A stretch of 23,287 bases of DNA from a virus: positions 1 to 23,287 of IMG/VR virus record IMGVR_UViG_3300037191_001847. The stretch is one strand, 5' to 3'. A program made the translations under genes and the position numbers. The notes under the pieces are model-generated. The model saw only the letters and a list, made by a program, of their open reading frames with translations. It was not told the DNA's origin and did no database searches. Numbering within the stretch: position 1 is the stretch's first letter; every line of letters starts with the position of its first letter. Shown here piece by piece: positions 1 to 21,951 of this stretch.

Positions 1-331
1 CACTGAAATCCGGATGGCCCTCAATTGGGAATTCCCCAGCGGAATTCGAGAGTTCATAGAGCGGCTCGCTGTCATTTCCGTCGATCCCGAAGAATTCCGC
101 CTCGATCAACACGAATGCGCCGTGCGTTCGCATGGAGTATTTATCCATTTCCAGGTAAGAAAAGTAGGGATGCGCTTGGAATGGCCCCGGAATGGATGCC
201 TTGTAGTCTTCCGGGGTGGTCATCCACACACAGCTCCCGTGAAACATACCAAAGCGATCCTGCGTCACATCGTAAGCGCGATGCAGCCAGGCGTTCCCAT
301 CGCTGCCGAATTTATATTGAATATCACTCAT
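1..331 (-). CDS. Tail-region protein, partial (cut by window edge)
   Basis: An open minus-strand frame begins with ATG at 331 and runs off the left edge after about 110 codons. The start overlaps the tape-measure stop by one base (TAATG), the usual sign of translational coupling in phage operons. The visible protein begins MSDIQYKFGSDGNAWLHRAY and is rich in aromatic residues and prolines; the last visible part reads PIEGHPDFS. I do not recognise a named family. Its place directly after the tape measure suggests a distal-tail or tail-tip component, but that rests on gene order only. The plus-strand ORFs over the same bases look like shadows. Confidence 0.7.
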   Translation of the reverse strand, partial: MSDIQYKFGSDGNAWLHRAYDVTQDRFGMFHGSCVWMTTPEDYKASIPGPFQAHPYFSYLEMDKYSMRTHGAFVLIEAEFFGIDGNDSEPLYELSNSAGEFPIEGHPDFS

Positions 332-3273
332 TACATTGGCCCCCTGTCATCTAGGATTTCGCCAAGTTTCTTGTTTGTCTCTTTTTGGGCGGCGACCATG
401 CGATCGCGGGCACGCTGGGCGGGATCGCTCCCCGAGGCGTGCCCACCAAGTCCAAGTCGCTGGAACTGATCAGCTACGACCTGCGAGCCCTTGCCTTGCT
501 CTTCGGCACCCACTCGCGCGGACATTTGGCGCTCCGCCATTGCCTGAGCCTCTTCAGCGCCCATGCCCCCTTGGGTGATGTTGGCTTGCACTAGCTTGCG
601 TAGCGCCTCGCCGTCCTCGATCGCCCGCGCCTGCTTCGGGCGCCCACCGATACGCGCCTCATTGGCTGCGATGTCGAGTGCCTGGTCGCGGCGGAATGTG
701 TCTTGGCGGGTCTTCTTATCCGTCTCCGTCGTGGAGTATTCTGCCTCAGCGCGGAGCTTGGCCTCACTCGAAGTCATGTCAGTCGAGGATTGGAGTGCGC
801 GAATACGTTGCTGGATGAAGAGCTGCTTCTCGGCGTCTTCGCGGATCGTTCGCATCGCGTCGGCTTCGTCCCACCTCCCTTTTGCGATGGCCTCGGCGGC
901 ACGGGCGGACAGGTTGGAGATTTGCAGTTTCCGATCAGCATCACCGCTCGCTTCGCCGCTGGACTTGTCAGCACTCGCCTGCTGCTGGGCGAGGCTTTCT
1001 TTTTCGGTCTCTAGGGAGTTGAGATTGCCAAGGTCGTTGTTCGCCTTGATGTCAGCATCAGTCCAGACCGACTCGCTGGTTTCGTCGAGTCGCTTGTTTT
1101 GCTTTTCCTTTATGAGCGCAATTTCCTTCTTGAGTATTTGCATTCGGGCATCAGCGGCGACTGCGGCTTTAATTTCCTCCTGAGTGGCCGCCTTCTTGAC
1201 CTTCCCGTTGAGGACATTGCTCTCAACATAGTCTTTCTCTACATCAAGTTTTCCCTGTGCCGCCTTTAACTCGTTTGCGAGGACAGTGTCTTTGTCTTCT
1301 TCTGCCTGATCGCCGTCGCGCTTGTTGATGGCGGCAGCGATGCGCTCTTCCAGCTCCTTTCTTCGCTGCGCAATTAGAAATGCCTTCTCTTCGCCGGTGC
1401 CGCGTTGCATAGCTCCCTGGAAAACGACATCCGCAATCTGCTGTTCCAGCTTAATTTGCCGCGTTTTATCCGCGCGCTTACGCTCGTCGGGCTTGCGGTC
1501 TTCGGCCTTATTTTCTTCGAGCGCCTTCTTAGCCTTCTCAACTCCGGTTTCGGCTTGCTTGATCCCATCCTTGTTGCCCCGCCAATTATCCTTATCCTTC
1601 TTCTTCGCTTCGGCTAGGTCGCGATATGCTTTAGTCAATGCGGCGATCAGTGTGGTTTCGTTCTTCTGTTGATCCTGCAATGTCTTCGCGGCCGCCGCCA
1701 TCTTCACTGCCTCGTCGCGGGAGTCACGCTGAGCCGCTCGTAGCTCTTTGAGATACTGAGTCTGTTGCTGGGTGGAGCGATTCCAGAGATACCAAGTGGC
1801 GAGTAAGAGCCCCACGCCAGCGGAGGCGGCGCCAAGGGTTGTGGCGAGCACTGCAAACGCTGCTGTGAAGGCTGATCCGACTAATCCGACCACGCCGCCG
1901 AGTAGTTTAAGGACGCCTTGTAGCGCCCTACCGCCGAGCGAAGCACCAATCATCGCCTTCCCGGCCTTGTTCGTGCGTAGGATGGTCGAGGCTTTAGCGC
2001 TGTTTAGCGCAGCGAGGCTCAGCGCTCGCTTCTTATCCGCAACCGTCGCGGCAGTCTTGGCGAATGCTTCTAGTCGAGTCGCGCGGGCGCTTAAAATACT
2101 CGCACTGGTGGCAGCCTTGGATGCCTTTACGAAATTAAAGTTGTAGCGGGCGGCGAGTTTAAGGGCGGACTTGAGCGATCCGAGGTTGCCAATTAACCCT
2201 GAGATCCCGCGAAAGGTGACGGCAGCTTGCGCGAAGAGTGCGGCAGTTCCAAAGAGGATGAAGGCGTGCATCGCGGTCGTCGTGGCGGCGGCGACCGCCT
2301 CCATTGCGGCCTTGTTCTGCTTGATCTTATTGGAGAGATCGCCAAGGACGGACAGCTTGCGAAGATGCTCACCTAGCTCTGCGATGACGGGCGTGAACGC
2401 TTCAGTCACAACGATCGCGGCCTTGATTCCATCCTTCTCACGCTCTAGGAAGTTATTGCCAAATCCGCGTGCCATCGCATCCCGCGCGTCGGCCAGTGTG
2501 GAAGTGAGGCCGGTTGCGGTCTGAGAGAGCGACTTCATGCCGCCCTCGTTGCGCCTAAGCTCCTTTTCAACGAGCGCCCATGTGCTACGAGCGCTTGCTC
2601 CCGCAGTTGTGAGCTGTTCGATCTCACGGCGAACTGAACCTGACACGACGCCCATTTCCTGCAAGCGCATCATCGCCTCACCCGTCGGGCCGCCGCTATC
2701 CATCGCGTCTTTTAATCGGCCGACCCAGAATGCGACCTCTTCAAGTGGGCGACCAGCCACGGCGGCGGCGTCTCCGATCATACGGAGCCCCGCTGAAGTG
2801 GAGAGCGCCCCGTTTGTCATGATCTCAAGCAAGCGCGATGCTTCCGCAATGCCTTTAATTGAGAATGGAGTGGAAGCGGCAAATTGAAACAGCTCAGCTA
2901 GCCGATTTTTCGCAGCCTGAATGCCGCCGAGTAGCGGCTTGAATTGAGTGATGAGATTTTCCATCCCCTTCGCTTCTTTCAGCCCGTCGGCCATGAGCCG
3001 CGTTTGCCCAACGACCATTTTTAAGGCAAATCCGATGCCGAGCACCACGCCTGAGATCAGGCCGAGTGGGCCGAGCACACGAGAGATCAGCACGCCACGC
3101 AGTCCGCCCCACGCCGCCTGAGAGGCCGTGCCACCAGCCGCGAGGATGATGCCAGGTTCAGCCAGATCGCCCGCTAGATCGCCGAGGCTATTCTTGAATG
3201 CGGCGGCACCTACCAGCTTTGGTTTAACGGACGCCTCGATCGGCACTTTTTTCGGTGTATTAGATTCATCCAT
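331..3273 (-). CDS. Tail tape measure protein
   Basis: This 980-residue protein sets tail length and is placed inside the tail tube. Near residues 125-150 it carries the block FQFAASTPFSIKGIAEASRL, typical of tape-measure N-terminal cores. Hydrophobic stretches lie at about residues 50-90, 335-355 and 445-495; the last ends in a tryptophan-rich segment. The C-terminal half is charged, lysine/glutamate/alanine-rich and likely coiled coil. It starts one base after the stop of the 249-aa gene and its stop overlaps the next start. At about 1.5 angstrom per residue, a rule of thumb from other siphoviruses, it would fit a tail near 150 nm; this is an estimate only. The order tail tube, small gene, tape measure is the standard siphovirus layout. 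Confidence 0.93.
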   Translation of the reverse strand: MDESNTPKKVPIEASVKPKLVGAAAFKNSLGDLAGDLAEPGIILAAGGTASQAAWGGLRGVLISRVLGPLGLISGVVLGIGFALKMVVGQTRLMADGLKEAKGMENLITQFKPLLGGIQAAKNRLAELFQFAASTPFSIKGIAEASRLLEIMTNGALSTSAGLRMIGDAAAVAGRPLEEVAFWVGRLKDAMDSGGPTGEAMMRLQEMGVVSGSVRREIEQLTTAGASARSTWALVEKELRRNEGGMKSLSQTATGLTSTLADARDAMARGFGNNFLEREKDGIKAAIVVTEAFTPVIAELGEHLRKLSVLGDLSNKIKQNKAAMEAVAAATTTAMHAFILFGTAALFAQAAVTFRGISGLIGNLGSLKSALKLAARYNFNFVKASKAATSASILSARATRLEAFAKTAATVADKKRALSLAALNSAKASTILRTNKAGKAMIGASLGGRALQGVLKLLGGVVGLVGSAFTAAFAVLATTLGAASAGVGLLLATWYLWNRSTQQQTQYLKELRAAQRDSRDEAVKMAAAAKTLQDQQKNETTLIAALTKAYRDLAEAKKKDKDNWRGNKDGIKQAETGVEKAKKALEENKAEDRKPDERKRADKTRQIKLEQQIADVVFQGAMQRGTGEEKAFLIAQRRKELEERIAAAINKRDGDQAEEDKDTVLANELKAAQGKLDVEKDYVESNVLNGKVKKAATQEEIKAAVAADARMQILKKEIALIKEKQNKRLDETSESVWTDADIKANNDLGNLNSLETEKESLAQQQASADKSSGEASGDADRKLQISNLSARAAEAIAKGRWDEADAMRTIREDAEKQLFIQQRIRALQSSTDMTSSEAKLRAEAEYSTTETDKKTRQDTFRRDQALDIAANEARIGGRPKQARAIEDGEALRKLVQANITQGGMGAEEAQAMAERQMSARVGAEEQGKGSQVVADQFQRLGLGGHASGSDPAQRARDRMVAAQKETNKKLGEILDDRGPM

Positions 3274-5889: not shown

Positions 5890-6876
5890 CTATGAGCGGC
5901 CAGTAGGGATCAAGATGCCGCAATTCTCATTGACGATCTTCTCGTCAGTGTTGTGGCGAACGCGAACCATTTCAGAACGGATGTTCTCTTCACGGTAGGA
6001 CTCTGTGACGAAGAAGCCTGGAGAGTCTTCTTCCCAAACGATTGTGCGTCCAGCGCCACCCATTTCAAGGAGACCACCAGCGACACAACCCATCCAGATA
6101 TGAGTGTCAGGCCAAACCCAGCTCATGTCGGAGGAAGCGGCTTTGCCAGCCTTCTTCTTAGTGTCCTCGTAGGCCGCTTGACCGACGAGCAAGTTGATTG
6201 GCATCTGCAACATTTCAGAGAGGTAAGCCGATACTGCGCCTGCACCCATGATCTTGTTGCTGGAGTTCACACCGAACATGCGCTCGGAGAGAAGCTTGGA
6301 CATGCTGATCACATCCCAAAGCTCATCGGACATTGCGATGGTGTTTGGACGTTCGCCCATTTTTACCATGCCACGCTTGGCGTTCTTGATGTCCTGAAGG
6401 AAATCAATAGTTGCCGAGTTCGCTTCGTCGTAAGCGACGACTGGATCTTGTGTCGGGAAGACATTTGTGTCCATGATCTTGTCACGAACGCGGATCTCGT
6501 GATCGAGGCGCATGGTGCGAGTCACACGTTTCAGTGCGACAGCTTCAAGCTGGTAGAAGCGAGCCTTGTCAGCTTTCTCCGTATCGTCGACAGCCTCTTC
6601 GAGACCGCGATCCTTACAGGAGAAGTTATCAGCCTCGTCTGTTCCAGTGATGCGAGGATACGCAGTGCGCGGAGCGCGAAGAGTGCCAGTGCCGTCCGTC
6701 TTGCGGAGCAGTTGGCCAGTGCGTAAGCGCAGGCGCTTGTATTCGCCCGTGCGTGTCGAGTAACCGACATAGGGTAGGAGAGCTTGACCGATGTAGCCTT
6801 CGTCGGCTGACATCGCATCTTCCACGACTGCTTGAAGGTCGGGACGGATTTCGGCGGTATTGGTATCGTAGGACAT
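5890..6876 (-). CDS. Major capsid protein, lambda gpE-like
   Basis: The 328-residue protein is close in length to lambda gpE (about 340). It begins MSYDTNTAEIRPDLQAVVED and contains an early conserved block LLPYVGYSTRTGEYKRL, a basic N-arm region and a late block GAGRTIVWEEDSPGFFVTES typical of gpE-type capsid proteins. It directly follows a decoration protein and a protease/scaffold gene, the lambda C-Nu3-D-E order. AAGGA lies about eight bases before the ATG. It would form the icosahedral shell around the packaged DNA. A 134-aa gene and a terminator follow. Confidence 0.93.
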   Translation of the reverse strand: MSYDTNTAEIRPDLQAVVEDAMSADEGYIGQALLPYVGYSTRTGEYKRLRLRTGQLLRKTDGTGTLRAPRTAYPRITGTDEADNFSCKDRGLEEAVDDTEKADKARFYQLEAVALKRVTRTMRLDHEIRVRDKIMDTNVFPTQDPVVAYDEANSATIDFLQDIKNAKRGMVKMGERPNTIAMSDELWDVISMSKLLSERMFGVNSSNKIMGAGAVSAYLSEMLQMPINLLVGQAAYEDTKKKAGKAASSDMSWVWPDTHIWMGCVAGGLLEMGGAGRTIVWEEDSPGFFVTESYREENIRSEMVRVRHNTDEKIVNENCGILIPTGRS

Positions 6877-7298: not shown

Positions 7299-8633
7299 TT
7301 AGAGTGTTTGAACTGCACCCTTAGCGCGGAAGTCGGAGTAACCGGCAGGGTCTTGAGCGATCAACTGTTGCCATGCCTGCGCACCGGCAGCCTTAGCAGA
7401 GAGGTTGGTGTTAGCGGCTTGAAGCTCTGTCGCGATAACAGCGACACGGCTTTCAAATGCGTTCACATCATCGTTCGGAAGCATGCCCGCAGCGGTGAAG
7501 TTTGTCTTGATCGGAGCGCGTCCAGCACCCGCGAGTGCCTTAACCAAACCAGCGTTGGTGGCTTCAAGCTCAGTCACCTTGGAAGCTTGGGCTTCGAGGT
7601 TGGTGATCTTCTCGTTGGTCGAAGCAAACTCAGCGTCAACGACAGCTTTCTGCTTTGCCAATTCATTGCCGCGGATGATTGCAGTCAGCTCAGTGATCTG
7701 AGAAGCCATCGCGCTCATCGCAGTTGCGGTTGCGGGGCCAGCTTCAGCAGCGACTGCTTCGCCGAGGCCTTCGCCTTCGGCAGCGCCTTCAGCTTCGCCA
7801 GTGAATTCGCCAGCTTCAGCACCATCACCACTCTCAGCGATTTCCGCTTGAGTGTTTTGCTGGATGTTGGAAAGGGCTTCTTCGCCATGAACCTCAGCAA
7901 TGAATTCCTGAGCGGCTTGGAGATCAGCAAGGTCGATGCCATAAGCTTCGGCTTGCTCTTCTGTGAGCCCTGCGATTTGCAGCGCTTCCTGCTCTGCATC
8001 GTTGGACTGCTGTTGTGCGATATATTCGCCTTGTGCAGTGACCTGTGTTGTCAGCGCTTGAACGGCTGTCATGAGGTCTGCGAGAGTAGGTTCTTGGATT
8101 GGATCTGGCATCTTATGGTTTGGTTGGTTGTCAACTTGCTTTGCTGTGAAGAGACCGGTTGGATTTGCTGCTGGGTGAATGACGTAGTCGGTCGAGAGTA
8201 GAATTTCGCAACGTGCCTTGGTGCGGCCATCGACGATTTCAGGGGCGTCTGGCCCCTTGAATGAAACGCTAAGGCCGACCGTCTCAGGTTGCTCTTCTGC
8301 CGTTTCGAGGATCTGCGAAAACATCTTGTGGTTCTTCAGGAGCTTCCAGTCGGCCAATACTTGATCGTCCTTACGGCGAAAGTTCACTAGGTAGCCGCAA
8401 ACAGCATCGACACCCGAACCGTGATTGATCTTCACGGGAATCTTGCCAGCCGTGTTTCCTTGCAGCTCGATCTGGTTGAGCGTCGTGTCGTCAATGTCGA
8501 GCGCGTGGCCGATGGCAGTGACGTTGCCAGTGATGACAGAGACCCCTCGGATCATTCCGTCGGTGTGATCGACCTTCGCTTTGCTAGAGTCGAGCTTAGA
8601 GTAAAATTGAATGAGATTAGTATCGTCTGCCAT
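7299..8633 (-). CDS. Prohead maturation protease fused to scaffold
   Basis: I place the start at ATG 8633 (MADDTNLIQF, 444 aa). The in-frame ATG at 8681 lies inside the arm of a terminator. The N-terminal 180 residues look like a prohead protease: VKINHGSG supplies the candidate catalytic His, VGLSVSF the candidate Ser, and a late block DYVIHPAANPTGLF is typical. The rest is acidic, alanine/glutamate/glutamine-rich and coiled coil, as in scaffolding proteins, so protease and scaffold are one polypeptide as in lambda C/Nu3. It would cleave head proteins and shape the prohead, then leave. Residues 7-10 (LIQF) match a motif repeated in the upstream virion proteins. The leader has GGTTGAC at 8652-8658. 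Confidence 0.85.
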   Translation of the reverse strand: MADDTNLIQFYSKLDSSKAKVDHTDGMIRGVSVITGNVTAIGHALDIDDTTLNQIELQGNTAGKIPVKINHGSGVDAVCGYLVNFRRKDDQVLADWKLLKNHKMFSQILETAEEQPETVGLSVSFKGPDAPEIVDGRTKARCEILLSTDYVIHPAANPTGLFTAKQVDNQPNHKMPDPIQEPTLADLMTAVQALTTQVTAQGEYIAQQQSNDAEQEALQIAGLTEEQAEAYGIDLADLQAAQEFIAEVHGEEALSNIQQNTQAEIAESGDGAEAGEFTGEAEGAAEGEGLGEAVAAEAGPATATAMSAMASQITELTAIIRGNELAKQKAVVDAEFASTNEKITNLEAQASKVTELEATNAGLVKALAGAGRAPIKTNFTAAGMLPNDDVNAFESRVAVIATELQAANTNLSAKAAGAQAWQQLIAQDPAGYSDFRAKGAVQTL

Positions 8634-8668
8634 TTCAAAGATCGGAATGGCGTCAACCTCGCGGGCAC

Positions 8669-8702
8669 AAAAAAGCCCCACTCGGCGAAGAATGGGGCTT
8701 TT
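8669..8702 (-). terminator. Rho-independent terminator before the protease gene
   Basis: AAAAGCCCCA and TGGGGCTTTT form a 10-bp stem with a 12-nt loop; on the minus strand the descending arm runs into six T. It lies 12 bases after the 95-aa gene stop and about 35 bases before the chosen protease start. The symmetrical A and T flanks could make it work in both directions. Confidence 0.88.
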
Positions 8703-8713
8703 GAAAGTGTGTG

Positions 8714-9001
8714 CTATCGGCGGTATCTTGATGGGTCGCGGCCAGTTGCGAGGGCTGCCTTGTAACGCTGAGCGTCGGCCGAGCTCCCTGCCTTAAACTC
8801 CGTCGGAGCCGCTTTCGGTTGCGGGCGATTGAGACGTTCACGCAACGGCTGAACGTAGGCCTTGCGCATCTTGTCTGGGTTCGTGTCCGAGGTATCGGAA
8901 AACTGCCCCATGTCGTCGCGCGGGCGTTCGAAGTTTATCAAGCCGTCGAGCCGACGACTTAGGCGGCGGACGTGTGACATTCTGTGTGATGTGAGATCCA
9001 T
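8714..9001 (-). CDS. Small basic companion of the polyvalent protein (95 aa)
   Basis: A 95-residue, arginine-rich protein of unknown family, placed between the 307-aa gene and a terminator. Residues 21-24 are LINF, followed by ERPRDDMGQF. The same pattern (hydrophobic-I-[QEN]-F, then an acidic stretch ending in an aromatic residue) occurs in the two genes upstream and the protease downstream. It has no hydrophobic segment, unlike its neighbours. The C-terminal half is basic and proline-rich (LNRPQPKAAPTEF) and likely disordered. It may be a packaged internal head protein; that is inferred from the shared motif and position. Confidence 0.7.
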   Translation of the reverse strand: MDLTSHRMSHVRRLSRRLDGLINFERPRDDMGQFSDTSDTNPDKMRKAYVQPLRERLNRPQPKAAPTEFKAGSSADAQRYKAALATGRDPSRYRR

Positions 9002-9011: not shown

Positions 9012-9935
9012 TTAGCGGTTCAATAGACGAGCGGCGCCCATAAGGCCTTTGCGCAAGAAGCCTCCCTTGGCTTGTTGGCCTCCAACTTTCGCTAGCCGAT
9101 CACGGAGACCGCGACGACCTTTGACCATGCCCTCACGGAAGCGAGTGCGCGTGTCGCTGCGGGGCGACTGCCCGGGGATCGTTGCGGGCGGGCCTGAAAC
9201 TCCAGGCGCCAATGGAGCCATTGGCGCGGACGAACCGCGTGGGGTTCCTTTGAAGCGATCACGTAGGCTCCCAACACCTTCGCGCACGCCGTTTTCAAGG
9301 CTAGAGGCTTTGACCGCGCCGCTCGCACGTCCACGGGCGTATAGGCCAGCGCCGACTGCGCCAGCCGCCGCAACACCTTCCTTCATGCCGGGGCCGTCCG
9401 AGCCTTCGATGTAACGGCCGTATTCATCGCGGCCAAAGTTGATAGTCTGAAGAAGGGAAGCCATGTAGAAGCGATCGGCATCTTTGCCGTAGAATCCTTT
9501 CATCGATCCATAAACGCTACCAGCTCCAGCTCCAATAGCAGCGCCAATGAGTGCCGTCCGTCCTCTCCCTAAAGGGCGACGTGGACGCTTGAATGGAACA
9601 ATCGCCGTCTTTGCTGCGCTGCGCATCGCTGATCCATTCGTGAGTGCCAGTTGACCGGACTTGCGAGCTGAGCGCTCCATAGCTACGGCCGCAACTGTGC
9701 CGGCTCCTGCTCCGATGACAGCACCCTTGCCAGTGCCTTTCGCGTCTTCCTTCAAGACGTGCTTATAGGCGTTCAGCTTCTCGCCTTTCTTCGCCGAGAA
9801 AACTCCGCCAACCGTGCGTTTCATCAGCTTGCGGTCTGGCTTTTCGCCGTCGGCAAATTCGATCGCACTAAGGCGTGAGTGAAGCGCGGTTGCTTTGCGA
9901 GCGCGGTATTGAGTTAAGTTCGTGGAATAATTCAT
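9012..9935 (-). CDS. Glycine-zipper protein, companion of the polyvalent protein (307 aa)
   Basis: The protein is basic and has three glycine/alanine-rich hydrophobic segments: GKGAVIGAGAGTVAAVAM (about 70-88), ALIGAAIGAGAGSVYGSM (about 127-145) and KEGVAAAGAVGAGLYARG (about 186-203). Such segments resemble glycine zippers that insert into membranes. AIEF at 24-27 and TINF at 164-167 (the latter followed by GRDEYGRY) are the motif shared with neighbours. The C-terminus is proline-rich then strongly basic. The architecture is like the C-terminal half of the giant gene upstream, as if one module family had split between two ORFs. A role as an ejected internal protein acting at the host membrane is inferred. 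A palindrome lies in its leader. Confidence 0.75.
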   Translation of the reverse strand: MNYSTNLTQYRARKATALHSRLSAIEFADGEKPDRKLMKRTVGGVFSAKKGEKLNAYKHVLKEDAKGTGKGAVIGAGAGTVAAVAMERSARKSGQLALTNGSAMRSAAKTAIVPFKRPRRPLGRGRTALIGAAIGAGAGSVYGSMKGFYGKDADRFYMASLLQTINFGRDEYGRYIEGSDGPGMKEGVAAAGAVGAGLYARGRASGAVKASSLENGVREGVGSLRDRFKGTPRGSSAPMAPLAPGVSGPPATIPGQSPRSDTRTRFREGMVKGRRGLRDRLAKVGGQQAKGGFLRKGLMGAARLLNR

Positions 9936-10009: not shown

Positions 10010-13000
10010 CTAGGCGTGTCTAGGGAATTGGATGACGGCCTCTGGTGCCTTTGGCGTGAGGGGTTTCTTTGGTCGGCGAGCGAGTTTCTCTGCTACTGTT
10101 TCGCGACCACGGAGGATCCCTTTGCGCATTCCTTGGCGGATGGCTCTAGGAGCGACTGCACTTGAGCGAGCGAGGTATGCAGTTCCACCGAGCCCCAGTG
10201 TGGCGACTCCGATCGCGACATTGCGCACCTTGCGGATGTGCTCAACGCGCTCACTCTTCTTCTTCTCGCGACGAGTGCGAGGGCGAGAGCCCGGTGTGAA
10301 GACACGGGCGCTACGGCCACGAGCATCACGCACGTCCCATCCTGCGTCACGGCTTTCGTCCGAGTCGCGATAGGAGGAAAGTTCCGTGACGGTCTGATTG
10401 GCGGAGAAGATTGGAAGGTTCTGCCCGTGGATCTCATTGATCTTCTTTATGATCCGAGTGTTGGCCCCTGCCTTGATTTGATACCCCGTTCGAGCCATCT
10501 GTCTCGATCCATACATAGTCCCTCCGAGCGCCGCCGTTGCGAGTCCGTTCTTGAACCAGCTCTTCTCGTAGAAGCGCTTCTTCTTTGGATCGCGAGGCCG
10601 ACGGCTCACCATATCGTCGAGGTCTTTGCCTACCCCGCCAGCACGTCCAGCCCACTTGCGAGTCGTCTGAGCTTTGCGCATCGTGGACTTCAAGCTGAGC
10701 GAACCCGCAAATTGATTGTCGTATTCTGGGTTGGGCAAATTGAAGTTGATGACGCCGCGATTGCGCTGAGTGAATAGCTCGCCCTGCTTAGGCTTCTTAG
10801 ACTTCTTCGGCTTCTTGATCGCGTCAGGGGATCCACCGACTCCGCCATTCATGACGGGGCGCTTACGCTTAGGTGGAGTCTTAATGAAGTCGTTATTGGC
10901 GACCTTCTTCTTGGCGACTTTCTTCGCGGTCTTCTTCGCGGTCTTCTTCGCTGCCTTCTTGGCAACTTTCGCTGGGGGAGCCTTCACCGCTTTCTTCTTG
11001 GCAACCTTCGCGACTGTCGCTTTCGCTGCCTTATTGGCCGTAGCCTTCTCGGCGGCTCTTGCTGTCTTACGAGCGGCTGCGTCGGCGACCTTCTGGTTTG
11101 CCTTAGCGGTTGCCTTGGCGGTGCGGGAAGCCGCAATTGCCGCGACACGTCCCGCCTTGACCTTAGCTGGCTCGAAGATCGTTCCAGCCGCCCAGTGCAA
11201 CCCTTTCTGGAAGGGCACTTTAGGCCGACCCATCGAAAGTAGAGCCATGCCAGTCCCCGCAGCCAGCCCAGCACCGATGATCGATGGTAGAGCCTTCCGA
11301 GCTGGGTGGCGGTTGTCTTCGAATCTGCGTGTCTTCGGGTTCATCCCGGTGGTGCCGTCCCATTCGCCATTCGCGCGGAATTCAATGAGCGGGCGACGAG
11401 CATCGAACAACATTACGCGGCCACGAGTCACGGCACGCACGGCGCGATTGGCGAGCTTGCCGGTTGCCCAGTTTTTCGGGTTGGCCGAGGCCTTGATGCG
11501 CTTCTTGGCAAGGTAAGTCTTTACCGTCGCGCGCTGCGTTGCTTTATCGACCCGTCGCGCAACGTTTTTTGCGTGCCGCGAGGTCTCCTTGGCGTTCTTT
11601 AAAATTGGTTCCACATCGGCGTGCATCTTATCGAGCACTCGGTCGGTGTTGGCCGCGGTCTTCGTTGCGTTGCGTGCGGCTCGCATTCCGTAAATAGAGC
11701 TGCCGACACCACCGATGAGGGCGGCGCTACCAGCTACGGTTTTAATCCGATCCCAATTGCGCTCACCCTTTTTTGTGGCTGGATCGAATGACGCATTAAA
11801 GTTGTGTGAGCGGCGCTTCTTTTTGTCCTGCTGATTACCAGCGGCCACGCCCGCTCCGCCTGCAACCACCAATGCGGGTGCGGCTAATGCTTTACGTGCA
11901 TAGGTCTTTGCGGCCCCGCTCTTGTCAGCAACGGCACGGCGCAAGTATTTCGCCTCGTTGGGAGTGAAGTCTGACTTGGCGATGGACTTCAATGAGTTTC
12001 CGTAGCTCTTGCCGTGAGTGCTCATTGCGTCCTGCTGACGGCGCTGGACACCCTTGCGGCCTTCGTTCCAATCCTTGAATTTCTTGTTTCGGTTCGGGTA
12101 TTTTACGCCGTTCTTCTTGAGGTTGTTTTTGATGCCGCTGCCGACCTCCCAATCCCAATGATCTTGAGCGATCTTATCGCCATGCAAGAAGCGCTGAGCG
12201 TGTGAACCCTTGAAGTGCTCTGCTCCTGCTTTATCGCCCTTGAGCTTGCGCCCCAGGAAGCTCTTACCCTTGGCTGCATTGCGAACGGTGCGACTGCTCG
12301 CTCCAGCCCACGCTTTGCCGATCGGATGATTTGCTAGGTTCTTGGATGACTTCATGTAGTCGCCCATGAATAGCGCGGATTCCTTCGTGCTCGGGGTCTT
12401 CCTGTTACCATAGCCCATCTTCTTTGCGGTCTTCGGCATGTTGCGAGCAACAGCGCGACGGCCTGCAATTCGCAGCATTGGGATCGCTGCGGGCAATGCC
12501 GTGACTCCTGTTAGTAGGGCAGCACCGCCCGCGAGTTTAAGCGCGAGCCCGGACTTCTTTTTCTTCTTATCTTCGGCGAATTGGATGAGTGGGCGATTCA
12601 TAGTAAGGTTGGTGACGTCAAAATGTGAGGCTGAGTAATCGCGGATCACCTTCACATTGGCACCACGAGGGATGCCCGCTGGAGTGAACCCTCGATGAGT
12701 GATGGTGGCTTGCTTGCCGGTGGCGCCTTTCACGGTATGGGGCGAGCCCTGCACCTTGAAGGTTTTGCCGCTAGGAGTCTTTGCGGTGTAGATGCCCTTT
12801 TTCTTACCTAAAGAAGACCCGACAATAGGGAACTCTCGGTCGTGGATCGGCTTACGTTTGAAGCTTCCGCCTTGCGTGCGAATGACCGTGCCCTCGTAGC
12901 CGTGCTTTAGGGCGCGGTTGTGTAGGCGGTCTAGGTGCTTTTGGTTTTGGGCAGTGTGCTCCGGAATCGGACTCACTGACCCACGGGAGGTTTTTACCCC

Positions 13001-15187
13001 ATTGTCGGGAAAGAGACGCAAGCGCAGTGGCTTGCCTTGGCGCATGTCGCTCACTTGGTTGCCCAGCGCGCGGCCTTTGCCGTGTTTGTAGAGTTCCCCG
13101 CGCAAAACAGCATCGGGGTTCTTCTTGAAAGTTTTCTTGAGCGAGCGCTCGATACGGTGCTGGCCGGTTACTGCCTTGCCGCTCTTGGTCTTGAGGCCGT
13201 GCTTGTTGGCTTCGACGAATACGCCATCGAGCTTCGGGCTGACCTGTGCGGGGAATTGCATGGCTTGGCCTTCACGGTATTCCTTGAGCCCTGACTTGAA
13301 TTCAGTGACGCGGCGTAGTGCGCTCATGCCGACCCAACTATTCTTCTTGTAGATCCGCTTGGCCTCATCGATGCCGAGAGGGTTGCGCGCCCCCGATGAT
13401 GCAACATGGAAGCTAGGATTAAGCATGTGTTTCCCATTACCTCGGTTGAGTGGGTTCTGTTGCATGTCCCTCTTATTTCCGTCATAGACCCTCTTTAGTG
13501 TGGGCTTATCGAGATTCATCTTAAACCCCATCTTGGCTTTGCGGGTTTCTGCCTGTCTGACTTGAACGCGAAAGCTCTTGCCCGCCGAAAAGCCAGGATT
13601 AGCGGCGCGCTCCATCCCGACTGCATGGCTCCATGCGTTCTTCTTGTATGTCCGGTAGTTGGGCTTTTGAGCTTTCCCGTATTCACGCCGGTCGGCCTTC
13701 GTGGTGCCTGCCTTCTTCATGATGCGGAAGCCGTTGTGGTTCGCCTCGCGCTCCTTGGCTAACTTCTTTTTGAGGACTCCCTTCAAAATTGTGCGATCTT
13801 CCTTTTGGCGGTATAGCCCCGGATAGTGGTTCTCTGCTGCCTCGTGAAAGTTGTCATCATACCCGCTATTACGTCGGACGTGCCCAGCGCGTCGGTGTCC
13901 CGATTCGTGGATGAGGTCGTGGAATGGCTTGCGGTTAGATCCTCGCTCGATGCTGATATTACCATCGGATCTTAGCGATGAAGGTTCGCCCTTCACTCGA
14001 CTGATCTTTGCGCCCGATTGCTTCACACTGCGAAGGATGCTCTTGGCCGCTCCGAGTCGCATGAATTCAGTGATATTGTGGAGTGCCGCAAAATCATTGA
14101 AGCGGGTATAGCTACGCTTCCGGAATCCGCCACGAACAAGGGCAGTGCGCTCGCGGATTTGCTGGGCCGGGAAGTTGCGCATCGTAATTTCCTGCTCTGC
14201 CCCGAGAGCTCGATTCATGGTATAGGCCTTGCTGGTTGAAATCATCTTCTTCAATCGGGATAGAGGGTAAACCGCCTTGCCTTGGTATTTCATCCCAGCG
14301 TGCGATGCTGTTCCGTTCGGCCGTGTTGTTGTCGAGACGTAATTACCCGATGACACTACAGCGTGCTCCTTGGCGCTCGCTCCCGTGTTTAAGCCGCCCT
14401 GCGCCCATCGCTGGGTAACTGCCTTTTTGGTGTTTGCGTGGCGAGTGACTACAACCGACGGCTTCCCGTTCTTATTAACGAAGCGGGGTAGTGATTCTAT
14501 TTTATTCGATCGCCCGCGCGTAGGGTAACCGAGAGCGTTCATAGCGCCTTTTTTTGCGGCAACCTTTGTCATCCTGCGACTGTCGACGGTGTGCGCTCCA
14601 GGGTTCTTCATCGCGCTGTCCACGCTATTTTTGATGAAGCCCTGCTTGAACTTACGGCGGACACTCTTGCGAGCCGCGATGCTAAGTGGGCGCATTGCCA
14701 ATTCAATGGCATCTTGTTCCATCGCGAAACGAACAGGCGCCATCTTGCGGCCTGAGCGCACCCACTTCTTAAATTGATCGACCCCCATTGTAGCGGCGGA
14801 TCCCATGCCCTTCCAGCCAGCCGCGTAGGCCTGCTTGTAAGCGCGGATCGCCTCATCCTTGGTAAAGAAGCCGAGCATACATTTATGCTCGTCGAACTCG
14901 CGTGTCTTCGGATCCACCTGATTGATGATCGTGACCAGCTCGCTGCGACTGTGCGGCCCCATGAATACATCGATGTGATCGCCATCCTTACCCATCGTGC
15001 CACGGATATAACCGTAGTCGTAAGGCATGATAGACGACCACGCTTTGCCCGTCTTATCCTTCCCTCGGCGCGCGCTGCCTGCTGGGTTCTCGATCGAGAT
15101 CGGGAGCCCCTGCCAGCGGACTTTCTTCATGCGGTAATTGCCCGCGCGTTTACGTGCTTGAGAGGGATTCGGGTCGGTGTGATTCAT
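10010..15187 (-). CDS. Polyvalent virion protein: pyrophosphatase, ART-like, zincin, DNA ligase, glycine zippers
   Basis: I start at ATG 15187 (1725 aa); GTG 15250 and ATG 15220 are alternatives that would overlap the 75-aa ORF. Residues 20-154 resemble inorganic pyrophosphatase (PYDYGYIRGT, metal Asp 68/70/73 in DGDHID, then D92, D99, K102). Residues about 245-345 look ADP-ribosyltransferase-like (RHANT, YVSTTT, EQE at 331-333). HESGH at 427-431 is a zincin motif. Residues about 645-850 are an ATP-dependent DNA ligase: KLDG (K652), GELY (E698), EGTVIR (E765), FKRKP (776-780) and an OB-like end with PAGIPRG. After that come six hydrophobic glycine-rich segments, a histone H1-like tract (about 1340-1433) and four hydrophobic-I-[QEN]-F motifs. 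The protein is basic throughout. Known phage polyvalent proteins combine such domains and are thought to be ejected with DNA. Position between portal and protease fits an internal head protein. Confidence 0.88.
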   Translation of the reverse strand: MNHTDPNPSQARKRAGNYRMKKVRWQGLPISIENPAGSARRGKDKTGKAWSSIMPYDYGYIRGTMGKDGDHIDVFMGPHSRSELVTIINQVDPKTREFDEHKCMLGFFTKDEAIRAYKQAYAAGWKGMGSAATMGVDQFKKWVRSGRKMAPVRFAMEQDAIELAMRPLSIAARKSVRRKFKQGFIKNSVDSAMKNPGAHTVDSRRMTKVAAKKGAMNALGYPTRGRSNKIESLPRFVNKNGKPSVVVTRHANTKKAVTQRWAQGGLNTGASAKEHAVVSSGNYVSTTTRPNGTASHAGMKYQGKAVYPLSRLKKMISTSKAYTMNRALGAEQEITMRNFPAQQIRERTALVRGGFRKRSYTRFNDFAALHNITEFMRLGAAKSILRSVKQSGAKISRVKGEPSSLRSDGNISIERGSNRKPFHDLIHESGHRRAGHVRRNSGYDDNFHEAAENHYPGLYRQKEDRTILKGVLKKKLAKEREANHNGFRIMKKAGTTKADRREYGKAQKPNYRTYKKNAWSHAVGMERAANPGFSAGKSFRVQVRQAETRKAKMGFKMNLDKPTLKRVYDGNKRDMQQNPLNRGNGKHMLNPSFHVASSGARNPLGIDEAKRIYKKNSWVGMSALRRVTEFKSGLKEYREGQAMQFPAQVSPKLDGVFVEANKHGLKTKSGKAVTGQHRIERSLKKTFKKNPDAVLRGELYKHGKGRALGNQVSDMRQGKPLRLRLFPDNGVKTSRGSVSPIPEHTAQNQKHLDRLHNRALKHGYEGTVIRTQGGSFKRKPIHDREFPIVGSSLGKKKGIYTAKTPSGKTFKVQGSPHTVKGATGKQATITHRGFTPAGIPRGANVKVIRDYSASHFDVTNLTMNRPLIQFAEDKKKKKSGLALKLAGGAALLTGVTALPAAIPMLRIAGRRAVARNMPKTAKKMGYGNRKTPSTKESALFMGDYMKSSKNLANHPIGKAWAGASSRTVRNAAKGKSFLGRKLKGDKAGAEHFKGSHAQRFLHGDKIAQDHWDWEVGSGIKNNLKKNGVKYPNRNKKFKDWNEGRKGVQRRQQDAMSTHGKSYGNSLKSIAKSDFTPNEAKYLRRAVADKSGAAKTYARKALAAPALVVAGGAGVAAGNQQDKKKRRSHNFNASFDPATKKGERNWDRIKTVAGSAALIGGVGSSIYGMRAARNATKTAANTDRVLDKMHADVEPILKNAKETSRHAKNVARRVDKATQRATVKTYLAKKRIKASANPKNWATGKLANRAVRAVTRGRVMLFDARRPLIEFRANGEWDGTTGMNPKTRRFEDNRHPARKALPSIIGAGLAAGTGMALLSMGRPKVPFQKGLHWAAGTIFEPAKVKAGRVAAIAASRTAKATAKANQKVADAAARKTARAAEKATANKAAKATVAKVAKKKAVKAPPAKVAKKAAKKTAKKTAKKVAKKKVANNDFIKTPPKRKRPVMNGGVGGSPDAIKKPKKSKKPKQGELFTQRNRGVINFNLPNPEYDNQFAGSLSLKSTMRKAQTTRKWAGRAGGVGKDLDDMVSRRPRDPKKKRFYEKSWFKNGLATAALGGTMYGSRQMARTGYQIKAGANTRIIKKINEIHGQNLPIFSANQTVTELSSYRDSDESRDAGWDVRDARGRSARVFTPGSRPRTRREKKKSERVEHIRKVRNVAIGVATLGLGGTAYLARSSAVAPRAIRQGMRKGILRGRETVAEKLARRPKKPLTPKAPEAVIQFPRHA

Positions 15188-15201
15188 TCCTGGGTCGTGG
15201 C

Positions 15202-15429
15202 CTAATACCACCAGCTCCATGCAGTTGCGGTCAGCGGAATCGCGAACCACGCCAGCAAGGTGAGAGTGAGTAGTGAGAGCAGGAGGTTAATCCTCGCTTG
15301 GATCGGGCTGGCTTGCGGGCGATTCTGCATCCGCTCCAGTAGTTCCGCTGCTCTTGGCAGGTTTCCCGCTAGGAGTGCTTCGCGCACCTGTTCCTTTGCT
15401 CGTTCGTCTTGGCTTTGGTTTTCTGACAT
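15202..15429 (-). CDS. Small membrane protein, holin-like size (75 aa)
   Basis: The N-terminal 40 residues are charged and helical (DERAKEQVREALLAGNLPRA). The C-terminus is one membrane segment, LLLSLLTLTLLAWFAIPLTA, ending WSWWY. It overlaps the 115-aa ORF by about 143 bases in another frame of the same strand and ends 15 bases before the chosen start of the giant gene. A single-segment membrane protein among head genes could be a holin-like or virion membrane component, but nothing else here points to lysis. The clean helix and anchor make it more credible than chance. Confidence 0.55.
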   Translation of the reverse strand: MSENQSQDERAKEQVREALLAGNLPRAAELLERMQNRPQASPIQARINLLLSLLTLTLLAWFAIPLTATAWSWWY

Positions 15430-15634
15430 ATCGTTTGTTAGTTGCTGGGCCTAAGACCCATTGGTTGCCGTTCTTCTGAACGTGGTGGTAGAGTGACTCG
15501 CCTTCGGGGCTCTCTGCGGGAACGAGCGCGAGCTGGTTCGGCGCGAGTTCGACGGGGCCGAGTGCCCCGTAACCTTCCGGCATTTCAAGATCGCGGCGTG
15601 TTGGGAGTCCGAAGACTAGGTTTGAATCGTTCAT
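15287..15634 (-). CDS. Small protein after portal (115 aa)
   Basis: The ATG overlaps the portal stop (ATGA at 15631-15634), a strong coupling signal. The first 65 residues are protein-like (LGPVELAPNQLALVPAES, YHHVQKNGNQWVLGPAT). The rest is low-complexity, basic then acidic, and is the part overlapped by the 75-aa frame. I do not recognise it. Lambda-like phages often carry small head genes here. The N-terminal domain is probably real; the disordered tail may persist because it tolerates a second coding frame. Confidence 0.6.
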   Translation of the reverse strand: MNDSNLVFGLPTRRDLEMPEGYGALGPVELAPNQLALVPAESPEGESLYHHVQKNGNQWVLGPATNKRYVRKPKPRRTSKGTGARSTPSGKPAKSSGTTGADAESPASQPDPSED

Positions 15635-17373
15635 GATTGGTTCGGTTGGATTTGCGGAGTGGGGGCGGTTGGCACATCAGCATCGCCTTGCTTGGGGACG
15701 ATGATCTCAGCCTTGCCGCGAGGCATTTGGTAAGTGTAAACGAGTAGCTCGATTGCTTCTTCGCGCGGTAGTGCGCCCTCGGCCACGTTGTTGATCAGCT
15801 CAAGGATCTGCTTTGCGACCTTATCTCCAGCTTGCTGGATCGTCGGCTTGAGTTTCGGCTCTGGATTCTGAGCGGCGGCGAGATCAGCAAAGAGGCTCGT
15901 GCCGTTCTGGAATTCGGGTGACAGCATTTCAACTGGCACTTGATACTTGATCGCTGCTGCATGGAGCTTGCCGATCTCCTTAGCGCGAGCATCCACCAGC
16001 TCGTCGTAGTCGTAGCCTTGTGCGGCTGCGAGCTTAGCGGCGCTGGTCAGGTTGTAGCGCAGAAGTGTGATGTCGGCATTCGTTTGGTAACCGAGATCCG
16101 CGGTGATGTGTGGGCCGAATGTCCATGAGCCATTGCTCATGTCCGGGGCAGGGGGGAGGTGCCCCAATTGCACGGCCTTGAAGAACACCATATCGCGAAG
16201 CGGGTTGAGCACCGCACGGCGTAGAAGGTTCTGCCAATTATTGATCTTGCGTTGAATCTGGTGCGCTTCGAGTCGTGACGACGCTCCGCCAAATCCGCGC
16301 ATATCGAAGAAGCCGAACGGTAGGTCGACGCCCATTGCAATGTCGCGAATGGTGGCATCGATCAAAGCGATGAATGCCCCAGAAGGGCGGTTCGATGGTG
16401 GGAAGGCTTCGACCGATTCACCTGAGCTCAAGCGCAGCAATTTGTTCGCTTGAACCTCTTGGGTTGGTGTGCCTTCGGCTGTGACGCCGTCGAATTCAGC
16501 AGCGCCTGGGCCGCGAGCATCTTTCTCGTAAACGATACCAGCATAACTGGATGCCCACTTGGCCGCGCCGCGCTCCATCGAGAAAGACTCGTAAAGGTCA
16601 TTGGCTTGATCGAGCACACGGCAGAACATTGTTACGCCGCGCAACTGATCGGAGGTTTCGAGGCTCATCAATGGGAGCATCTGCTCGGCAGGAATTAGCC
16701 CATCCTTGTTGGCCGAATACATTCCGTTCTTGTCGCGATCGAATACCTCATACGCGAGCGGGCGCCCTGCGTCATCGATGTGAACGCCAGAAATCTTGTG
16801 GGGATCAATATCGCCGCCCGCTCTGTCGGGGTGTCCGACTCGATCACTCTCAATACACTGAAGTTCGTAGCCGTCTTCAGTGTGGACTGGGTGGATAAAG
16901 AAATCGCCATCAACGAGCATCTGAATGAATGCCACTCGAAGGAGTCCCGCGAGGTCGGTGCGGCCTGTCATGTCGGCGCTGTGAGTCGCCCACTTCTTCC
17001 AGTATGCCTCGTAGAGCGTATCAAGCTCATCGTCGCCCGTGTTGGATTGATACATGACTTGCGGCACCACGTAGTCAGCGAGCCGATTCACCACGCACGA
17101 GATCACCGGCATATTGCGGTATGCCTTGCGAGCATCCCAGATTAGCTTAACGCGATCGCGCTGGCTAGCTGGGCTCTGTGTCGTCGCATTCTGACTGCGA
17201 CCACCGGATCCCTGGCGGCGTGTGCCGGGGTTCGCTGCACGCCATTGGAATTCGAGCATCGAGTGGCGCGCCTGCATTCGGGTCATGGCCTTCTCAGGGG
17301 AGACCACTGTGAGGGCGCGTTCGAAGCGAGTCGGCGCAAGCGCCTGCACCTTTTGTTTGAGTGAAATGCTCAT
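15631..17373 (-). CDS. Portal protein, lambda gpB-like
   Basis: The 580-residue length fits lambda-type portals (about 530). Recognisable blocks are RKAYRNMPVISCVVNRLADYVV, WKKWATHSADMTGRTDL, the block LVDGDFFIHPVHTEDGYEL, QCIESDRVGHP, SGVHIDDAGRPLAYEVFD and DQLRGVTMFCRVLDQANDL, all in the family order. It forms the dodecameric ring at one capsid vertex through which DNA enters and leaves. The start overlaps the gpW-like stop (ATGA at 17370-17373) and the stop overlaps the next gene. The C-terminal 60 residues are helical and charged, a usual place for the crown and barrel. Confidence 0.95.
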   Translation of the reverse strand: MSISLKQKVQALAPTRFERALTVVSPEKAMTRMQARHSMLEFQWRAANPGTRRQGSGGRSQNATTQSPASQRDRVKLIWDARKAYRNMPVISCVVNRLADYVVPQVMYQSNTGDDELDTLYEAYWKKWATHSADMTGRTDLAGLLRVAFIQMLVDGDFFIHPVHTEDGYELQCIESDRVGHPDRAGGDIDPHKISGVHIDDAGRPLAYEVFDRDKNGMYSANKDGLIPAEQMLPLMSLETSDQLRGVTMFCRVLDQANDLYESFSMERGAAKWASSYAGIVYEKDARGPGAAEFDGVTAEGTPTQEVQANKLLRLSSGESVEAFPPSNRPSGAFIALIDATIRDIAMGVDLPFGFFDMRGFGGASSRLEAHQIQRKINNWQNLLRRAVLNPLRDMVFFKAVQLGHLPPAPDMSNGSWTFGPHITADLGYQTNADITLLRYNLTSAAKLAAAQGYDYDELVDARAKEIGKLHAAAIKYQVPVEMLSPEFQNGTSLFADLAAAQNPEPKLKPTIQQAGDKVAKQILELINNVAEGALPREEAIELLVYTYQMPRGKAEIIVPKQGDADVPTAPTPQIQPNQS

Positions 17374-19259: not shown

Positions 19260-20114
19260 TCAACTGGACAACTGGCTCAAGCTTCGGATCCTAGCCTTCC
19301 GATACGTCTCACACTGCGCCATTGAGCGCATGAACTGACTGGGTCGAATCTTGATCAACTTTGCCAGCTTCTTGCAGCGTTTCGATACTGCGGCGCGCTC
19401 GATCCCGTAGTTGCGAGCGATGGCCGCTTGGGACGGGGACTTCAGCCCTCCAAAGCCAGCCACGAGGCGAAAGCACTCCGCTTCGAGCCGCGCGTTGGGA
19501 GCCGCTAGAATGATGTCGAGGATTAGGCGTAATGCGTGCCAAGCTCGATCCTCTTCGATCGTCCTTTTGTCGAGCCCATTCGATTGCCCTTCGGGGGACT
19601 TTAAACACATGAGCCGACTAGGCTTCATCCCCAGCTCTTTAGGCAGCCGAGTGCAGACTCTCGAAATGGTGCCGATCGCTAAACCGTGCTTGCTTGCGAT
19701 GGAGGCTTTAGTGATTCCATCGAACTTCCCGAAACCACTACAGACACGAAAGCACTCAGCCGCCAAGCGCGCATTCCGAGCCTTGATGATCATGCCGATC
19801 GCCTGGCGAATAACAGACCAAGCCAGCTCTCCCTCCTGCGACTTTGGCGCTTCCTGTTGGGCGATCGGTAACTCGTCGACTGGAGTGCCCGTATGGGTTT
19901 GATAGTCGTCGCCCTTCGCCGTGATGCCCTTCGAGTGGGCGTCTCGCTTCTCATCCAACGATAACCGATTCCAAGATGCGCGGGGGATGACGTGGAGCTT
20001 TTGAGCCTTGTATTTATCTAGGTCTCGCTTCGAGAGGCCAATGAGGAAGCGAGCCATTTCTAGGCCCGACTGTATATCCCTTTCTGCGTCTCGTTTATGC
20101 CCTCCCACGGGCAT
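19260..20114 (-). CDS. Tandem HTH-repeat protein (284 aa)
   Basis: The protein is built from two copies of a roughly 75-residue unit, about residues 98-172 and 190-264. Each has AECFR followed by GFG, an HTH-like helix pair (ASIASKHGLAIGTISRVCTR; AAIARNYGIERAAVSKRCKK), then MKPSRLMCL or IRPSQFMRS. The duplicated design suggests binding to two half-sites on one DNA molecule. The N-terminal 90 residues are polar and carry no obvious motif. It lies between TerL and the LmbU-like gene. Roles as a late-gene regulator or a packaging-site binding factor are both possible. TTGACA occurs 24 bases before the ATG but has no convincing -10 partner. Confidence 0.7.
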   Translation of the reverse strand: MPVGGHKRDAERDIQSGLEMARFLIGLSKRDLDKYKAQKLHVIPRASWNRLSLDEKRDAHSKGITAKGDDYQTHTGTPVDELPIAQQEAPKSQEGELAWSVIRQAIGMIIKARNARLAAECFRVCSGFGKFDGITKASIASKHGLAIGTISRVCTRLPKELGMKPSRLMCLKSPEGQSNGLDKRTIEEDRAWHALRLILDIILAAPNARLEAECFRLVAGFGGLKSPSQAAIARNYGIERAAVSKRCKKLAKLIKIRPSQFMRSMAQCETYRKARIRSLSQLSS

Positions 20115-20166: not shown

Positions 20167-21951
20167 CTATCCGAGATTCGGTGACTCAACGAGCCCCGCG
20201 ATCATGGATAGAACGATAATCATACGGGTGGTGGATCCAAAGTGGTCGTCATGTCTCATCTGGTGCCAATTGATCGTCTGCACTCCGAACCGATCATGGT
20301 TCTCAACGCGGCGGTATGCGGTCACCTGAAGCTTGTAGTCGTGCAGTTCAAAGGCATCGACTCCGCGAGGGTTCTCCGCCGACTTCGCTTTCGGGATCAA
20401 CCACTGAGCCGACAGGCCGCGCATAAGCAGCTCTTGGCGCTCAAGCATGATGCTCTTCTTGAATAGATAGAGCTTGATCGGGTTACTGGCTTGATAGCGG
20501 TTCGTGCCGTAGAAGGTCTCAAGGAAGCTGATCTGATACGGCATTCGAACGCCGTCGATATTGTAGGCGTCTCCCTTATCGCCCATCATCGCTTTCCAGT
20601 TGTAAGAGCCGTCGGCCATGAGTCCGCTTTCGACGATATACTCGGCAACCTCTTCTGGGGCGAAACGCGCATCGATGCCGAACTGCGACGGCGGCACATC
20701 GTATTGACTTTGTAGGCCGCGCAGCTCGGATGCTGTCCACGCTTTGCCCCACGCAACAAGACGACTGCCGCCGCCTGGGATCACGTCGCGAATCTCCCAC
20801 ATGAAATGTCGGCCGCCCTTGGCCTGCACGTCGGCGGTCATGAATCGCCGCGGCTTGGCATGTTCGCGCGGATCGGTCAGGTGCCGTCGCATGGCTGCCT
20901 CGAATGGTTCCCACGGCGCCCGCGGATCGTAGGCCACTTCGCGTTGATCGATAAAGCCGTCATCATGCTTGAACTTGAGTTTGTCCTCCCACGGCTGGCC
21001 GAGCGTCTCGTTAATGAAGTCCTTGTATGGCTCGTGCTCGCCGATCTCCAGCGCCGCGGTCGCCTTGATAAAGTCCTCAACCATTTCAGTCCACTTCGTC
21101 CACCACGGAAGAATAGCGTTCCAGCAATACGATGTGCGGTGCTTCGGGGCCTTATTGTTATGGATGACCCACTCTCCTTGACTCTGAAAGGCCTTGCGGT
21201 CGGTCGCGGTATCTTCCCATCGGTGATCGCACTCAGGGTTACGGCAGTCGTAGCGGATCGTGCGGAAGACCTCTTCGAAGTCCCACTCGCCAGACGGGCA
21301 AGTTGTCTCGTTACGATCCCAAGTGATTCCACCCTTGGTATCCTCGCGACCGAATTCCACCGGCTGCGAATCCTTGCAGCACGGGCAAGTCACATAATAC
21401 AAATTTTGAGTTCCCGACTTATAACCACGGTGCAGGTGATCTTCCTCCATGTCTGGAGTGGAGATAATGACTCGCTTATAATTCGGATAGGAGCGCGTGC
21501 GCTTGCTGAACATTTCCAGCGCTCCCTTTGGCCATGAGCGAACCTCATCCCCGAACGTGTAACGGTAGGGCGTTTGTTGAAGGGTATTCTCATTGTTGGC
21601 CGAGCCGATAATGAGCTGCGCACCGGGAAAATAGACCTCCAGTGTGTTCTTTGAGCCGCGCTCTGTCGGCAGCGCATCTTTCACCGGCTGGCACTTATCG
21701 ACCATCGGCCACAAGCGACCTTTCGCAAACTTCTTGGCTTCCTGCTCATTCGAGGTTGCCCATAGCGTCGGCCCCGGATCCATCGCGATGATGTAAAGTA
21801 GCATCACCATCACCAGCACGGTCTTGCCAGACTGGGCACTACACATGCAGTAGATTTCGTGAACCTCTGGATTCTGGAAATCTTCGAGTATTTTACGCAG
21901 CCAAATAGCGTCCTCGGAATCCCAAGGCGTGCCCTGCGGCGTGTTGGGCAT
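20167..21951 (-). CDS. Terminase large subunit, lambda gpA-like
   Basis: The motor and nuclease for packaging, 594 residues from ATG 21951. The ATPase has Walker A AQSGKT (K43) and a Walker B-like TFGDEV near 135. A zinc-ribbon-like set follows (CPCC, CPSG and CRNPEC, about 195-245). The nuclease half shows acidic positions in MTADVQAKG and FGIDARFAPEE, and ends HDDHFG. The frame stays open upstream to 22062 and encodes AKVVIWKWAEKYIR just before the ATG, which fits the conserved gpA N-terminus. No ATG, GTG or TTG lies in that stretch. The true product therefore probably starts upstream by a -1 frameshift from terS or a rare start (ATT 22032 or CTG 22029, after AGGGGA). Confidence 0.93.
   Translation of the reverse strand: MPNTPQGTPWDSEDAIWLRKILEDFQNPEVHEIYCMCSAQSGKTVLVMVMLLYIIAMDPGPTLWATSNEQEAKKFAKGRLWPMVDKCQPVKDALPTERGSKNTLEVYFPGAQLIIGSANNENTLQQTPYRYTFGDEVRSWPKGALEMFSKRTRSYPNYKRVIISTPDMEEDHLHRGYKSGTQNLYYVTCPCCKDSQPVEFGREDTKGGITWDRNETTCPSGEWDFEEVFRTIRYDCRNPECDHRWEDTATDRKAFQSQGEWVIHNNKAPKHRTSYCWNAILPWWTKWTEMVEDFIKATAALEIGEHEPYKDFINETLGQPWEDKLKFKHDDGFIDQREVAYDPRAPWEPFEAAMRRHLTDPREHAKPRRFMTADVQAKGGRHFMWEIRDVIPGGGSRLVAWGKAWTASELRGLQSQYDVPPSQFGIDARFAPEEVAEYIVESGLMADGSYNWKAMMGDKGDAYNIDGVRMPYQISFLETFYGTNRYQASNPIKLYLFKKSIMLERQELLMRGLSAQWLIPKAKSAENPRGVDAFELHDYKLQVTAYRRVENHDRFGVQTINWHQMRHDDHFGSTTRMIIVLSMIAGLVESPNLG

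Follow-up and report, generated by a model that had tools for sequence, protein, structure and literature searches.

The window, by which we mean the whole stretch of DNA analysed, is a 23.3-kb IMG/VR virus fragment whose likely genes lie on the minus strand in a head-tail order, with the tail genes beyond the capsid gene. IMG/VR scans with the portal, capsid and terminase also identified a sister phage, represented by two contigs of 63.9 and 35.9 kb, whose proteins are 73% (portal), 80% (terminase) and 77% (capsid) identical to those of the window. The gene order in both phages is small terminase subunit, large terminase subunit, portal, giant protein, small basic proteins, predicted protease and predicted capsid protein. 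The giant gene, with the terminase upstream, sits between the portal and capsid genes in each, a place that matches expectation for polyvalent phage proteins. Several of these proteins carry a short tag of the form [IVT][DENQ]F.

331-3273, minus strand, putative tape-measure-like protein (gene order and appearance)
5890..6876, minus strand, predicted major capsid protein (position, 77% sister identity; no Pfam match)
7299..8681, minus strand, predicted prohead protease with acidic scaffold-like tail (tags LIQF 8604-8615 and KTNF 7497-7508)
8714..9001, minus strand, 95-aa basic protein with two tags (LINF 8930-8941; PTEF 8795-8806)
9012..9935, minus strand, 307-aa basic protein of two tagged modules (AIEF 9855-9866; TINF 9435-9446)
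10010..15187, minus strand, giant modular protein (ATG start; 1725 aa)
15631..17373, minus strand, portal protein (Pfam PF05136, 1.2e-40)
20167..21951, minus strand, terminase large subunit, gpA type (Pfam PF05876, 2.1e-35)
21981-22793, minus strand, terminase small subunit (PHROG 57, 2e-8)

The small terminase subunit begins with a Lys/Ala tract of about 75 residues (AAKKTTAKKK...) that resembles the histone-like tract of the giant described below, and the sister's small subunit does likewise. The gene after the terminase (19260-20114; L030:1246-2106 in a near-identical contig) has a seemingly duplicated helix-turn-helix-like half with weak matches to such domains; the sister has a single copy.

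The giant gene is a single open frame, as originally predicted. The minus-strand frame at 10010-15250 runs uninterrupted for 1746 codons from a GTG, and residues are numbered here from that GTG at 15250. The ATG at 15187, the upper limit of the stretch as originally described, is codon 22 of this frame. This methionine is also where the homologue in the sister begins, so 10010-15187 is the likely gene. Its product is a very basic protein of 190 kDa (pI 11), and G+C content is even across 10-15 kb. A short frame at 15202-15429, coding for a hydrophobic end, overlaps the giant's frame in its upstream portion and terminates shortly before the giant's ATG, in an arrangement shared with the sister; its likely product is a small membrane protein made by coupled translation. 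The features of the giant are as follows, in order from the N-terminus.

14759..15157, minus strand, InPase (pyrophosphatase) domain, residues 32-164 (Pfam PF18823, E=3.8e-51; 79% identity to sister)
14126..14470, minus strand, ADP-ribosyltransferase-like segment, unproven, residues 261-375 (motif pattern only)
14063..14074, minus strand, tag ITEF, residues 393-396, between the ADP-ribosyltransferase-like and zincin-like segments
13781..13978, minus strand, zincin-like segment, residues 425-490, HESGH at 448 (13895-13909; motif only)
13298..13309, minus strand, tag VTEF, residues 648-651, just N-terminal of the ligase
12632..13288, minus strand, ATP-dependent DNA ligase, adenylation domain and OB-fold, residues 655-873 (PHROG 114, tblastn, aligned motifs)
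12578..12589, minus strand, tag LIQF, residues 888-891, directly C-terminal of the ligase
12473..12523, minus strand, Gly/Ala-rich hydrophobic stretch, residues 910-926
11840..11890, minus strand, Gly/Ala-rich hydrophobic stretch, residues 1121-1137
10013..11791, minus strand, C-terminal module block in common with the sister, residues 1154-1746 (blastp E 9e-28 and 2e-95)
11687..11737, minus strand, Gly/Ala-rich hydrophobic stretch, residues 1172-1188
11378..11389, minus strand, tag LIEF, residues 1288-1291, where the sister has an extra module of ~100 aa between two tags
11231..11281, minus strand, Gly/Ala-rich hydrophobic stretch, residues 1324-1340
10865..11161, minus strand, histone-H1-like Lys/Ala tract, residues 1364-1462 (27 Lys and 33 Ala in 99 residues)
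10742..10753, minus strand, tag VINF, residues 1500-1503 (sister equivalent VIEL)
10502..10552, minus strand, weaker hydrophobic stretch, residues 1567-1583 (by eye; under the cut-off, with a sister counterpart over it)
10169..10219, minus strand, Gly/Ala-rich hydrophobic stretch, residues 1678-1694
10025..10036, minus strand, tag VIQF at the C-terminus, residues 1739-1742 (sister equivalent VIKF)

Two of the four predicted enzyme domains, the pyrophosphatase and the ligase, stand. The pyrophosphatase is certain from its sequence: it scores 172.9 bits against a curated Pfam cut-off of 26.8, with the signature DGDHIDV at residue 89 and the acidic metal-binding residues present. Among solved sequences, the nearest is a phage portal that also has this domain (PDB 9b41, 4.5e-29). 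Iyer et al. (PMC5512222) describe a precedent in which a virion InPase is fused to the portal, and suggest that InPase could clear pyrophosphate early in infection.

Sequence comparison gives good support for an ATP-dependent DNA ligase. PHROG 114 matches residues 640-885 (E=9.2e-18), and tblastn of the segment against phage ligases gives E-values down to 2e-14. Alignment with four phage ligases places motifs I, III, IV and V at K673, E719, E786 and the K797/K799 region, which indicates that the catalytic residues are kept, and also extends over the OB-fold part. Pfam matches on this segment are marginal and below their cut-offs (DNA_ligase_A_M 0.059; OB_2 0.016). Matching records in the phage collection number 58, annotated as ligase, as hypothetical protein or not at all. 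Stand-alone phage ligases, including those of Caulobacter phage Cr30 and Alteromonas AD45, share a homologous core and OB-fold at ~22-29% identity over most of the segment. However, the four inspected are separate proteins of 371-394 aa and carry an N-terminal part, whereas the ligase of the giant is a module in a head-gene product and does without that part. A non-exhaustive text search of PMC5512222 and follow-up literature, covering portions of these sources, found no DNA ligase domain in polyvalent proteins; of three mentions of ligase in PMC5512222, the passage inspected concerns RNA ligases.

The other two enzymes are candidates only. The predicted ADP-ribosyltransferase has no match in Pfam, NCBIfam, PHROGs, PDB sequences, phages or plasmids, and what is left of that claim is a motif pattern (VVVTRHAN at 266, STTTR at 306 and AEQEIT at 351) that is suggestive only. 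The HESGH motif of the predicted zincin is present, followed by a later HEAAE, but homology searches found no zincin homologue, and at least one HExxH arises by chance in 3.7% of shuffles of the giant. AlphaFold, run on residues 185-896 without relatives, gives a pLDDT of 41, too low for the model to be used. Searches of IMG/VR found no close relatives of the ADP-ribosyltransferase-zincin segment or of the ligase segment. With at least two unrelated domains, InPase and ligase, in one frame coded among virion genes, the giant nevertheless fits the class of polyvalent proteins described by Iyer, Aravind and colleagues, to which it had been assigned.

The Lys/Ala tract at 1364-1462 confirms the histone-like tract of the original prediction. 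The six glycine-zipper segments also predicted correspond to five clear Gly/Ala-rich hydrophobic stretches and the weaker one near 1567. "Glycine zipper" is a loose term for these stretches because the strict pattern GxxxGxxxG occurs only twice in the protein, in neither case within a hydrophobic stretch, and a strict zipper is rejected. A DUF948 match at residues 1186-1240 falls far under its cut-off.

The giant of the sister has a different cargo. It is 771 aa long and comprises an InPase, a DUF948-like module and C-terminal modules; the whole ADP-ribosyltransferase-zincin-ligase region is absent, so that a cargo of ~970 residues, including the ligase, is found only in the window. The two phages have a fixed frame in common, an N-terminal InPase and C-terminal Gly/Ala-hydrophobic and Lys/Ala modules. 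Thus, the cargo is exchangeable. No ligase was found elsewhere in the sister records, including the 63.9-kb contig, by a family search that detected the ligase in the window and in control genomes. Blastp aligns sister residues 169-303 with giant residues 1154-1295 (9e-28), and sister residues 399-771 with giant residues 1288-1746 (2e-95). The gap between these blocks shows that the sister holds ~100 extra residues, between the tags VTEF and VTNF, both of which align to a single tag of the giant, LIEF.

One sister lineage was found. The IMG/VR scans also gave two fragments: one, of 5.7 kb, is near-identical, and the other has a portal stretch of 61% identity but breaks off short of the giant gene. 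Terminase patterns, which reach near relatives only, detected no prophage relatives among 84,980 genomes. The sister encodes a tyrosine-type phage integrase (L044:13103-14305; Pfam Phage_integrase 1.2e-13), so the lineage is probably temperate. It also encodes a reverse transcriptase (L045:8434-9357; Pfam RVT_1 3.5e-21), which may be part of a diversity-generating element or of a defence system.

The tag is enriched in the giants and in the small basic proteins beside them. Six tags are seen in the giant of the window against 1.26 expected from shuffles. In the small basic proteins of both phages, tag strings (LINF, TINF, AIEF, TTDF and PTEF) occur near the start, ~20-40 residues from the N-terminus, and the predicted protease carries tags toward both of its own ends. 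We ranked three-residue class patterns by scanning the small proteins together with the predicted protease, keeping the giants out. [IVT][DENQ]F came first among 35,937 patterns (15 seen against 1.69 expected), in a scan that was partly blind, as the tag had been spotted by eye in the giant beforehand and the residue classes were author-chosen, and in which several training proteins were homologous pairs. The two giants together have 9 tags against 1.70 expected (p=7e-5). Among 19 control head, tail and packaging proteins, there is no enrichment (7 seen against 6.92 expected).

Module gains and losses fall at tags in both phages. All three borders of the sister blocks lie within 4 residues of a tag, an outcome reached in 25 of 2,000,000 random placements of three tags, for a rule that rests on two phages. 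The ligase is enclosed by VTEF (648) and LIQF (888). Two borders are without an exact tag: the end of the InPase and residue ~1150. Outside the giant, the second module of the 307-aa protein is a separate gene in the sister, whose stand-alone product, which bears a tag close to its N-terminus, is homologous to the 307-aa protein's second half from the internal tag on. The 95-aa protein is 58% identical to a 59-aa sister protein with the same N-terminal tag. As far as we have searched the literature, the tag-at-border rule is undescribed. The tag, the modular exchange with the sister and the presence of the tag in small basic neighbours were missed by the original prediction, and seem to be the main point. 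They favour a view of the giant as separable head modules strung together over that of a single multi-enzyme.

We judge the chances about even that this gene belongs to the late head genes of an uncultured tailed phage, that its product is packaged and enters the host with the DNA, and that the tag is a sorting or cleavage signal. The giant resembles a string of parts packaged in the head, which may be cut from one another before the enzymes enter the bacterium. We infer that the tag is either a capsid-sorting signal or a cleavage signal for the prohead protease; on that footing, the giant would be carried in the head and, as the head matures, would probably be cleaved into individual proteins, in the way that the proteases of T4 and SPN3US trim head proteins. 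The prohead protease is itself predicted, from its position between portal and capsid and from two conserved motifs, KINHGSG and VGLS, in a protein 62% identical to its sister counterpart; searches found no profile support for it, and its AlphaFold model has a pLDDT of 32, again too low for use. Short motifs, such as AXE in SPN3US, are the sites at which prohead proteases cleave many head proteins (PMC10052503).

In its fullest form, which we hold tentatively and at less than even chances, this reading describes a head polyprotein of injected enzymes and membrane modules, most of them started by a tag and cut by the protease in the capsid, with whole tag-to-tag units such as the ligase swapped between phages. 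On the main reading, the Gly/Ala-rich modules would help in crossing the inner membrane. With ATP as its cofactor, the predicted ligase would close nicks, or joined ends, in the injected genome, in place of the NAD+-dependent ligase of the host. Self-adenylation of a ligase yields pyrophosphate, which a pyrophosphatase removes, and the pair would therefore suit incoming DNA; the predicted pyrophosphatase could clear the pyrophosphate of both ligase adenylation and early polymerases. The ADP-ribosyltransferase-like and zincin-like segments, if real, would act on host proteins or on the chain itself, by modification or cleavage.

It is rather unlikely, though it fares best among the alternatives, that the giant is a conventional polyvalent protein injected intact, with the tag acting as a binding motif that recruits modules to the scaffold, the protease tail or the portal. 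The tag statistics mark module starts equally well on this account and say nothing on cutting, and the position of the tag in the small proteins is like that of a sorting signal. Furthermore, Schitoviruses such as N4 expel a polymerase of ~3,500 residues as a giant protein (PMC12633501). However, tags also occur inside the chain, at its extreme C-terminus and toward both ends of the protease, which suits cut sites.

The zincin within the chain could be the cutter in place of the prohead protease. Zincins are the commonest polyvalent domain and have been proposed by Iyer et al. (PMC5512222) to process such proteins, and HESGH is followed here by HEAAE. Self-cutting is nonetheless improbable: HESGH is a motif only, of a kind that shuffles yield at the chance frequency given above, the searches found no homology for the segment, and the sister giant is tagged without having the zincin segment, so the tags cannot depend on it. 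We give a similarly small chance to decayed enzymes, with the giant as a basic, DNA-condensing, membrane-active internal protein in which the InPase and ligase folds have only DNA-binding or structural roles. The very high pI, the Lys/Ala tract, the hydrophobic stretches and the InPase built into a portal of solved structure all agree with such a role, but the ligase and InPase keep their catalytic residues, and the InPase is 79% identical to that of the sister. Fusion of separate genes by a metagenome assembly error is very improbable: although the full cargo version occurs on one contig only and the near-identical contig L030 ends at the portal, the frame is free of stops over 1746 codons with even G+C, and both flanks are homologous to a single gene of the sister.

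The preferred reading, a packaged chain of tagged modules, has several known parallels. Phage heads package and inject enzymes, with T4 Alt (PMC5512222) and the N4 polymerase (PMC12633501) as examples, and polyvalent proteins are already known, InPase among their domains. The InPase group of Iyer et al. 2017, as described in PMC5512222, has the same InPase family, several unrelated domains and portal-adjacent head genes; the giant differs by its DNA ligase, its border tags and its Gly/Ala and Lys/Ala modules. Portal-InPase fusions (PDB 9b41, L006 and others) likewise place an InPase in a portal-region virion protein, whereas here it is N-terminal on a separate large protein. DarB-like giants (L004 and L005; 3,600+ aa) are also giant chains with an InPase. 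The one in L004 (1024-12447) joins it in one frame to MutS domain I, ddrB-ParB and a methylase-like domain, and has few tags, with no evident enrichment. As a general trait of InPase polyvalent proteins, the tag is rejected, since it is absent as a feature from the others compared. The T4 internal proteins and Alt, and the SPN3US ejection proteins, would resemble the giant, under our working model, in having short signals in injected head proteins; the motif of the giant differs, its enzyme cargo lies in one chain, and its cutting is a proposal.

These findings bear on how the giant proteins that phages inject are loaded into the head, pass through the tail and emerge as active enzymes. A tag common to small head proteins and to the modules of a giant would yield a rule, open to testing, that predicts which proteins enter the head and at which points they are cleaved, and would help in locating cargo in other phages. 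If the ATP-dependent ligase is indeed injected, it would allow immediate repair or circularisation of the phage DNA without the NAD+-dependent ligase of the host.
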